Assembly (NCBI GenBank): GCA_025463515.1
Contig: JAODAQ010000037.1
Coordinates: 1-64,000 of the forward strand
DNA: 64,000 bases
Direction of reading: 5' to 3'
Source: Rhodoglobus sp.
GTDB taxonomy: Bacteria > Actinomycetota > Actinomycetes > Actinomycetales > Microbacteriaceae
Translations under genes and position numbers: made by a program
Shown: piece after piece, positions 1,010-21,663 of the stretch
How positions within the stretch are numbered: the first letter of the stretch is position 1
Layout of the letters: each line of letters opens with the position of its first letter
Notes under the pieces: generated by a model
Told to the model about the DNA's origin: nothing
Database searches by the model: none
Seen by the model: only the letters and a program-made list of their open reading frames with translations

Positions 1010-1016
1010 GGTGGAG

Positions 1017-2114
1017 ATGCGTGCCGTGCGATTCCTCACCAAGAACTCGCCCATCATCGTGCCCGTTCTCGCGATCGTCGTGCTGGCAATCGCCTGGAAC
1101 GTGAAGGAGCTGCCGCTCGTCGCGGTCATCCTCATCGCCCTCGTGCTCGGCGGCACCGTGCTCGCGGCGGTGCACCACGCCGAGGTCATCGCGCACAAGG
1201 TCGGCGAGCCGTTCGGGTCGCTCATCCTCGCGGTGGCGGTCACGGTCATCGAGGTCGCGCTCATCATCACGCTCGTGATCTCGGGCGGGCCGGATGCCGC
1301 TACCCTCGCCCGCGACACCGTCTTCGCCGCCGTGATGATCACGACGAACGGCATCGTCGGCGTCTCGCTCCTGGTCGGCGCGCTCCGGCACCGGATCGTG
1401 AACTTCAACGCCGAGGGCGCCGGCGCCCTGCTCGCGACAGTGACCGCGCTGGCCGTCCTCACCCTGGTGCTGCCCACGTTCACCTCGGCGCCCGGGCAGC
1501 AGTTCTCCCCCAGCCAGCTCGCGTTCGTCGCCGTCGCATCCCTCGCTCTGTACGGCCTGTTCGTGGCCACGCAGACGCGCGTGCACCGCGACTTCTTCCT
1601 CCCGGTCACGAAGGCCGGCAAGCCTGTCGAGCCGGATGAGCACGCCGAGGCGCCCACGAAGCGCGCAGCGCTCATCAGCCTCGGGCTGCTCATCGTCGCC
1701 CTCGTCTCGGTCGTGGGGCTCGCCAAGATCGAGTCGCCGTCGATCGAGGCCGGGGTGGTGGCCGTGGGCTTCCCGCCCTCGTTCGTCGGTGTCGTGATCG
1801 CGCTGCTCGTGCTCCTGCCGGAGAGCATCGCCGCGATCCGCGCTGCTCGCGCCGACCGCATCCAGACCAGCCTCAATCTCGCCCTCGGCTCGGCGATGGC
1901 GAGCATCGGCCTCACGATCCCCGCGATCGCCCTCGCCTCGGTCTTCCTCGCGGGGCCGCTCGTACTCGGCCTGGGCTCCACGCAGATCGTGCTGCTTCTG
2001 CTCACCGTCGTCGTGAGCATCCTGACCCTCGCACCGGGCCGCGCAACGCGCCTGCAGGGCGGGGTTCACCTGGTTCTGTTCGGCGCCTTCATCTTCCTGT
2101 CGATCGCGCCCTAG
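1017..2114 (+). CDS. chaA: ChaA-type calcium/cation:proton antiporter
   Basis: A 365-residue polytopic protein with about eleven hydrophobic segments. Its conserved acidic motifs lie in membrane segments: AVAVTVIEVALI in the first half and ALLVLLPESIAAIRAARADRIQ in the second. These are the paired alpha-repeat signatures of the CaCA superfamily and resemble ChaA. The predicted role is efflux of Ca2+ or Na+/K+ in exchange for protons at the inner membrane. The track ORF begins at 381, but the start at 1017 gives the normal N-terminus and lies 7 nt after a GATACT -10 box. The gene appears monocistronic. Ion specificity cannot be read from the sequence. Confidence 0.85.
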   Translation: MRAVRFLTKNSPIIVPVLAIVVLAIAWNVKELPLVAVILIALVLGGTVLAAVHHAEVIAHKVGEPFGSLILAVAVTVIEVALIITLVISGGPDAATLARDTVFAAVMITTNGIVGVSLLVGALRHRIVNFNAEGAGALLATVTALAVLTLVLPTFTSAPGQQFSPSQLAFVAVASLALYGLFVATQTRVHRDFFLPVTKAGKPVEPDEHAEAPTKRAALISLGLLIVALVSVVGLAKIESPSIEAGVVAVGFPPSFVGVVIALLVLLPESIAAIRAARADRIQTSLNLALGSAMASIGLTIPAIALASVFLAGPLVLGLGSTQIVLLLLTVVVSILTLAPGRATRLQGGVHLVLFGAFIFLSIAP

Positions 2115-2583
2115 GGGCCCACTTCGACGTCGCCGACGCTCGGGCCGAGCGGTGCGGTACCCGGTCGTCCGTGCCTACGCCCAAGTCGAACCAGCCACAC
2201 GGCATACTGTCGACACCGAATTCAGGACAGTTCAGCCCAGCCGCGCGGGCGGTCGCTGAGACAGTCGGACCCAGCCGCGCAACAGACTCGCGACGCTCAC
2301 CGAATTCAGGACAGTTCAGCCCAGCCGCGCGGGCGGGCATTGAGACACGGACCCAGCCGCGCAGCAGACTCGCGACGCTCACCGTTTTCAGGACGTTGGG
2401 GCCCGCCGAGACGCGCAGCACGGGACGTCGCGAACCGCGCCTGAACGTCCTGAACGTCCTGAACGTCCTGAACGTCCTGAATACGGTGAGCGAATTGCAT
2501 CCGGGCCGGCAGGCCCGCGGCGGCGCGACAGGGCTGGCCCCGACAGGGCTGGCTCGACAGGTGCGGCGGGGCCGAGTGCCGCC
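2115..2583. repeat. Gene-free region filled with direct, tandem and inverted repeats
   Basis: This 470-bp gap holds no convincing gene. It carries a roughly 84-bp direct repeat: unit 1 at 2215-2298, unit 2 at 2299-2380 and a partial third from 2381. Each unit begins ACCG(AA/TT)TTCAGGAC. At 2441-2481 a 9-bp unit, CTGAACGTC, is repeated just over four times. Arms at 2376-2397 and 2471-2492 form a 22-bp inverted repeat with one mismatch that encloses the tandem array. ORFs in the track here only reflect the repeats. The function is unknown. Confidence 0.8.
2376..2492. repeat. 22-bp inverted repeat enclosing a 9-bp tandem array
   Basis: The left arm begins CGCTCACCGTTTTCAGGAC and the right arm ends GTCCTGAATACGGTGAGCG. 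The arms pair over 22 bp with a single mismatch, and the right arm merges with the last CTGAACGTC repeat. Transcribed RNA could fold into a long hairpin. The core TTCAGGAC also starts each 84-bp direct repeat. Confidence 0.8.
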
Positions 2584-2949
2584 CTAGACGCGAGGCTCGT
2601 CCACGATGCCGATGAACCGGCTGCCGATGCCGTCGATCTCACCGCGCACGAACCCGTCAGGCAGAGCCGGCAGTTCGGAGGCGGCGTGCTCTTCGCAGCT
2701 GAGCCACGTGAATGCCGGCCACCACTTCTTGGGGCGGGCGGCCTCCGTGAATCCGCAGACGTCGCAGGTGAGCTGCACCCACACGGGCTTCTTCCCGGTG
2801 CGGTTCGCCCACGACTGCGCCAGCCAGGCGGGAGGGTCGGCGCGCATGGCGTCGAGCTCCTGCTCGCTCATGCGCGCGGGAAGGCCGTGGCGGTTGGCCA
2901 TCTCGAGCGGGATGTCGAGGCGAAGTGCGGCCTCCCTGCGCGAGATCAT
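2584..2949 (-). CDS. Conserved hypothetical protein with a CxxC motif
   Basis: A 121-residue soluble protein. The N-terminal part (LDIPLEMANRHGLPARMSEQ) looks like a helical segment. It is followed by WLAQSWANRTGKKPVWVQL, a CDVCGF motif, ARPKKWWP, and a later SCEEHA that could complete a Cys/His metal site. I recall similar proteins in Microbacteriaceae but no function. The ATG is 6 nt downstream of TAGGCT on the minus strand, so a leaderless transcript is likely. It stands between the repeat region and the DUF7882-like operon. Confidence 0.7.
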   Translation of the reverse strand: MISRREAALRLDIPLEMANRHGLPARMSEQELDAMRADPPAWLAQSWANRTGKKPVWVQLTCDVCGFTEAARPKKWWPAFTWLSCEEHAASELPALPDGFVRGEIDGIGSRFIGIVDEPRV

Positions 2950-21284: not shown

Positions 21285-21663
21285 CAGCCCTAGCGCTCGC
21301 GACGAGGGCGCCGACCGGTGCCAACCGTCGCCCCGCCAACCGGCGTCGGCCGGCGCCCCGCGATGTCGCTCGCGACCCCCAGCCCGTCGGGCCCAGCCAC
21401 TCCGCCCGCTCCGCCCGCTGCCCGTCGGGCCCAGCCGCCCCGCCAGCTCAGGACACGGGCCCGGCCGCTCCGCCAGTTCAGGACGTTTGTCAGGCGTCCT
21501 CACCAATGTCCTGAGTTGACGGAACAGCGCGCGGACGCGGCGCTCGGCCAGCCGCCGCCGCGAGCGGGGACGAGCCGCGAGGAGCAGTCGGCGGTTCGAC
21601 ATGAGGGATAATCGGCGGGCTGGGCATACGATCGGAGAACCAGCAACGAACAGGGGAGTTCTC
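21285..21663. repeat. Gene-free G+C-rich region with short repeats
   Basis: This 379-bp gap has no convincing gene. Between 21381 and 21520 it contains two copies of CCCGTCGGGCCCAGCC, two CCGCCAG(C/T)TCAGGAC words, and an imperfect pairing of GTTCAGGACGTTTG with AATGTCCTGAGTT. The CAGTTCAGGAC core is shared with the repeat region at 2.2-2.5 kb. The last 60 bp (from about 21605) are less G+C-rich and probably carry the promoter of the next gene, but I cannot fix it. Confidence 0.65.

Follow-up and report, generated by a model that had tools for sequence, protein, structure and literature searches.

A layered intergenic repeat in Rhodoglobus sp. as the probable enlarged copy of a dispersed palindromic family

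Layered repeats between two convergent genes

The DNA analysed here, referred to as the window, is a stretch of 64,000 nucleotides from Rhodoglobus sp. Two convergent genes flank a spacer in which three layers of repeats are superimposed at positions 2214-2492: an 84-bp direct repeat, a 9-bp array and a set of inverted arms. The features of this region are listed below, where family A denotes the dispersed family to which the arms belong.

1011..2114, + strand: left flanking gene, sodium/calcium exchanger family (codon-model gene call; Pfam PF01699)
2214..2297, + strand: direct repeat unit 1, opening with ACCGAATTCAGGAC (2215-2228), the left arm that lies farthest out and is the most degenerate
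2298..2380, + strand: direct repeat unit 2 (82-bp spacing), with an inner left arm at 2294-2313
2376..2395, + strand: innermost family A left arm CGCTCACCGTTTTCAGGACG, opening a partial third unit
2440..2481, + strand: 9-bp tandem array of CCTGAACGT (4.7 copies), composed of the right arm's inner portion
2473..2492, - strand: family A right arm CGTCCTGAATACGGTGAGCG
2522..2561, + strand: 15-bp tandem array (TRF, 2.8 copies), located in the spacer of the 84-bp and 9-bp repeats
2584..2949, - strand: right flanking gene, convergent, with a weak DUF5997 match under the Pfam cut-off (codon-model gene call)

According to TRF, the direct repeat (2214-2394) has a period of 84, 2.2 copies and 91% matches, and its second unit is 82 bp long, with a 2-bp deletion relative to 84. 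The units start at 2215, 2299 and 2381, each with ACCG(AA/AA/TT)TTCAGGAC, which fits the opening that an earlier note on this DNA had described. The 9-bp array (TRF, 100% matches) consists of the inner portion of the right arm, in agreement with the proposal that the reverse complement of the core makes up a tandem array. Arm complementarity reaches 95% over 19 nt (2294-2312 with 2474-2492) and 93% over 15 nt (2214-2228 with 2474-2488); pairing is poorest for the outermost left arm (2215) and better for the inner ones at 2294 and 2376. While all three layers are real, the inverted repeat, previously given as 22 bp, is strictly one of 15-20 bp, because the best pairings span 15 and 19 nt.

The spacer (2115-2583) contains 56 repeated 14-mers, compared with at most two in 1000 dinucleotide shuffles, and the window has eight occurrences of TTCAGGAC where 1.15 are expected, with none of 100 shuffles reaching eight. 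Seven of these eight occurrences fall within 2214-2492. Exact 12-mer inverted repeats showed no excess by themselves (none in the spacer), and the RNA fold of the locus is more stable than that of shuffled sequences (z -5.2), as expected for inverted repeats.

Several other origins were considered and rejected. The ORFs that overlap the spacer were not called by the codon model, which places the spacer between two called genes. No known RNA family, CRISPR repeats included, reached the gathering score of Rfam 15 in the window, the only match being a sub-threshold hit to CRISPR-DR15 with an E of 0.28. The arm patterns are absent from IMG/VR viral contigs and the spacer from phage records. A scan of window positions 2080-2620, which covers the whole repeat locus, revealed no site of the canonical terminator type, i.e., a G+C-rich hairpin followed by a T-run.

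The arms belong to a dispersed family

In the 3.32-Mb genome from which the window derives (G000), there are 40 matches to the arm pattern ACCGNNNTCAGGAC and two to its reversed control; these copy numbers refer to exact patterns in a draft of 78 contigs that is 95% complete. The inverted arms are therefore non-random, and the repeated 14-mers and the arm counts together bear out the view of the earlier note that the arrangement exceeds chance. The genome search for core-bearing repeats that it had proposed thus recovers arms at many places: they stand as inverted pairs at about 20 loci, which we term family A, with the consensus CGYTCACCGNANTCAGGACR ... YGTCCTGANTNCGGTGARCG and arms of about 20 bp each. 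Sequence was read in stretches around the matches and in a 400-kb sample of a related genome (G019), and one genome per species was compared.

The smallest family A copies are hairpins of 63-66 bp with about 15-18 nt enclosed beyond the arms, and in the larger ones the arms lie about 55-490 nt apart. Long interiors bear no relation to one another, with the exceptions of a nested hairpin in copies L199 and L200 and of one pair with a short low-complexity match. The 19 arm pairs are 91% complementary over 20 positions and show weak covariation. Several family A copies are present in G012, a genome of the same genus, and the paired core TCAGGACRT...AYGTCCTGA was found in this genome only among 300 sampled genomes of the family, six of them from this genus. 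A scan of other genomes for the paired core returned 58 stretches, close to the chance expectation; three of them are known loci of G014 (two) and G006, and an actinobacterial match that was inspected (L122) looked like chance.

Two solitary family A arms lie inside genes, where both read as SPYSGH: one in a HAD-like hydrolase gene (L186:1510-1547, G000:C14) and one in a gene for an FAD-binding protein (L187:1468-1490, G000:C21). The ortholog of the HAD gene in G012 is of equal length, with about 22 bp substituted at the arm site; the arm has therefore replaced sequence rather than being inserted.

A sister family of hairpins at convergent gene ends

Searching for TCAGGAC...GTCCTGA uncovered hairpins of a fixed length of 67 bp, CGTTCCGCCAACTCAGGACATTnGTnnGGnnnCCnnACnAATGTCCTGAGTTGGCGGAACG, which have the core TCAGGAC in common with family A and are referred to as family B. 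Thirteen copies were read in this genome, one of them in the window, and two further copies were found in G014 and one in G006. The window copy, which is absent from plasmid records and for which a plasmid origin was rejected, is accompanied by tandem arrays:

21309-21361: further 25-bp tandem array near the family B copy (TRF)
21426..21484, + strand: 30-bp tandem array that overlaps the B copy's left arm (TRF)
21464..21530, no strand given: family B hairpin, 67 bp, with TCAGGAC core, the other element copy in the window

In the stems of 18 family B copies, 91.5% of cells are paired and 13 of 26 pairs have changed on both sides. All pairing and covariation measures lie above 500 of 500 shuffles and above slid controls, with the counts inflated by related copies and the stem chosen from the same sequences. 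Part of the covariation comes from two G019 copies, whose stems are strongly divergent (CCTTTGCCAACTCCAT, CCTTGGCCAGCGCCAT) and which have kept much of the inner pattern. Fixed conserved positions alternate in family B with free, non-complementary ones (ACATTnGTnnGG). Within the 400 kb of G019, only one B-like hairpin passed the filter for core and pairing, and it lies at the site of locus L174. The core search was also met by a palindrome, TCAGGACGATAACCCGAATATCGTCCTGA, which is found once per genome in about ten relatives (G026, G017, G015 and others; e.g., G026:C1:1001689-1001717) and looks like a different conserved site.

Nine of the 11 scorable family B copies are located between convergent genes, compared with 62 of 391 junctions in the G019 sample (p about 4e-6), and none between divergent genes. 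For family A, 4 of 16 copies are convergent (p 0.13) and 2 of 16 divergent (p 0.05). These gene-context figures are approximate because the background comes from another species and the genes from a home-made caller, which is based on codon usage, was trained on window genes with seeds picked by eye from the ORF list, and differs from standard annotation.

Most compared junctions of relatives are without the element

The corresponding junctions of related genomes were located through the flanking genes. At most comparable A or B junctions, about 190-410 bp in this genome correspond to only 0-36 bp in the relatives. Family A loci without the insert in the compared relatives are C10:16346, L192, L193, L188 and L203. 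For L192, L193 and L203, the last of which was measurable in G012 only, -2 bp (an overlap) to 36 bp separate the aligned segments in the relatives compared with 236-410 bp here. At C10:16346, about 320 bp are missing from G014 and G019, with the boundaries read by eye owing to a poor multiple alignment. At L188 a terminator-like hairpin and the downstream promoter region are common to this genome and the relatives, which lack about 200 bp present here. The family B locus L178 measures about 280 bp here, compared with about 20-30 bp between the stops in the relatives. The additional DNA in this genome comprises low-complexity flanks as well, so that the insert exceeds the hairpin in size.

Some family B sites are nonetheless common to other genomes: L179 is shared with G014 and, in variant form, with G019; L173 is shared with G006 (one flank); and L174 has a variant in G019 and is absent in G014 and G012. 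The earlier note had named as the opposite of its reading a sequence that is unique and not conserved or variable between strains; at the species level this does not apply, as most comparable junctions of the relatives are without the core.

Around the window's own junction, the relatives arrange their genes differently. In G014 and G019 the exchanger and the DUF gene are separated by a gene for an amino-acid permease, with 14 bp between permease and exchanger in G014 and two copies of yet another hairpin in G019. The window has no permease gene here; the spacer bearing the family A copy (2114-2584) is found in its stead. Because of this difference the relatives offer no clean empty site. The element could mark a deletion junction.

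Tandem expansion and tests for mobility

Tandem arrays accumulate at the elements. In the stretches read, element-bearing junctions (13.6 kb) had 54 TRF rows, other intergenic DNA (3.4 kb) two and coding DNA (77 kb) 12. As the rows overlap, and thus are not independent, and the amount of other intergenic DNA is small, these numbers indicate a strong tendency rather than a measured rate. Below 42 kb, the window has no intergenic TRF arrays other than those of the A and B copies; its 84-bp and 9-bp arrays, like those beside the B copy, are examples of expansion.

Matches between left and right flanks were no commoner than after permutation (lengths 2-9, several offsets), i.e., target-site duplications were not apparent. 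The RAYT family PF01797 (Y1_Tnp), the only one covered by our transposase search of the genome, is absent from the 95% complete draft and present in 5 of 14 control genomes, and a RAYT-driven REP was therefore rejected. The flanks of the inspected copies share neither a GTAG nor a CGTC tag; the ends are formed by paired CGTTC/GAACG. The earlier note had proposed a mobile or expanding non-coding element, a view that is supported in part: the element is non-coding, dispersed and expanded, whereas mobility would have to be read from its distribution, with neither target-site duplications nor a RAYT gene to accompany it.

Interpretation and alternative explanations

Positions 2210-2492 of the window are probably an enlarged copy of family A, a dispersed non-coding palindromic family of the non-autonomous REP/MITE type, with the enlargement due to local tandem duplication. 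Such an element would enter intergenic gaps that in most cases lie downstream of one or more genes, presumably by transposition or copying. Local tandem duplication, in which the replication machinery probably slips at the hairpin, would then enlarge it. For the copy in the window, this would mean duplication of an 84-bp stretch with a left arm and roughly fivefold amplification of 9 bp from the right arm, and these two events would account for all layers of the earlier note. The family itself, its dispersal, the conservation of its arms, its presence or absence relative to related species and its association with tandem arrays are observed; arrival and growth are inferred from the comparison with relatives, and so are movement, slippage and any effect on the neighbouring genes. 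Several findings argue against this scheme: no transposase or recombinase was linked to the arms (PF01797 searched), target-site duplications were not apparent, the insert is larger than the hairpin, the window's own junction has no clean empty counterpart in relatives, and the solitary arm in the HAD gene, which replaces sequence at unchanged length, is not explained by simple insertion.

REPs favour unidirectional and convergent gaps, several families coexist per genome, occasional copies lie in genes, and tandem reiteration together with flanking DNA occurs (Di Nocera et al. 2013, PMC3733652). The same source describes the GTAG and CGTC super-families as well as REP families without RAYT. 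Families A and B resemble REPs in being palindromic, dispersed and mostly intergenic, in forming several families, in their rare in-gene copies and in tandem reiteration. They differ in unit length (about 65 bp or more compared with 20-40 bp), in lacking a GTAG/CGTC end tag and, in this genome, a RAYT gene, and in the long unrelated DNA that many A copies hold between their arms; they are not members of the GTAG/CGTC families. Like MITEs, they are short and non-coding, have terminal inverted repeats and are missing at matching sites in relatives, but target-site duplications are lacking, the A interiors differ between copies, and no autonomous partner was identified (PF01797 searched). The open-access papers searched contained no description of either family or of REPs in Microbacteriaceae. 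A and B are new families of an already known, REP/MITE-like kind.

Alternatively, the hairpins, above all those of family B, could be functional 3'-end elements, i.e., bidirectional terminators or RNA-stabilising structures selected between convergent genes, with A as a looser version. The convergent placement of B, its two-sided stem changes and the sites it shares with G014, G006 or G019, where the G019 stem has changed and is still complementary, are in line with this, and B hairpins do resemble intrinsic bidirectional terminators in lying between convergent genes. However, the window A copy lacks a terminator-like site with a T-run, and most compared junctions in relatives do without the hairpin. 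At L188 the G+C-rich, terminator-looking hairpin common to all compared relatives is a separate one that is still present (read by eye). Conservation across the whole arm is unneeded for a terminator, covariation in a DNA palindrome can also arise when one arm is copied onto the other, and REPs generally favour such gaps (PMC3733652). We therefore regard this explanation as unlikely; a terminator role is unsupported for the window A copy and possible for B. It is more doubtful still that family B, rather than being debris, is a hairpin preserved where convergent genes end, with a stem sequence that each lineage replaces at fixed positions. This is suggested by G019, in which two sites occupied by B in this genome also carry hairpins; these retain much of the inner pattern, and their stems differ but are still complementary. 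If so, this would imply concerted evolution or coevolution with a recognising protein, and A would be an expandable derivative of B.

The alternation of fixed and free positions in B is reminiscent of a protein site, and family A keeps its arms while the interiors vary, as would be expected if the arms were bound by a host regulator or chromosome-organising protein, with the inverted pairing providing dimer or looping sites. We think this very improbable: the spacing of A arms ranges from about 20 to about 500 bp, few copies lie upstream of genes (two divergent A copies, no B), and most copies are absent at orthologous junctions of related species. A purely local slippage product without relation to a dispersed family, or mere chance, has next to no probability; the tandem arrays themselves are local, but the genome-wide excess of arm matches and their inverted pairing have already refuted this reading.

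As a copy of family A, the striking repeat cluster of the window would be explained by one member of a genus-restricted palindromic repeat and would show how such a repeat gains tandem layers. Family B offers a small, testable case of convergent-end hairpins that keep their place while the stems change between species.

Further hairpin families

Dozens of copies of another hairpin, GGTTGAGTAG...GTATCGAAACC...GGTTTCGATACG...CTACTCAAC (family C), are present in G014 and G006, and we take this family to be common in Microbacteriaceae; no description of it was found in the literature. In this genome it is represented at L206:9471-9564 and L208:3600-3673, and GGTTGAGTAG does not occur in the window. 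Family C is palindromic and intergenic like A and B but unrelated to them in sequence. In G014 it fills some junctions held here by A or B, with family C hairpins at the junctions of the B copies L180 and L182, and family C remnants adjoin family B in this genome. A third hairpin in G019 (CGTGTCTCGC) was rejected as a further family, being rare there.

Hairpins of about 80 bp, CCGTGAAACGGTCCAA...TTGGACCGTTTCACGG, make up a further family with two copies in G019 at the junction orthologous to that of the window (L099:5150-5582), and similar hairpins are nested between the arms of the A copies L199 and L200 of G000. Nesting was also observed in G014, where a hairpin AGAGTGCAGAAAGTG...CACTTTCTGCACTCT lies within the loop of a family C hairpin (L244, G014:C58:12100-12700).
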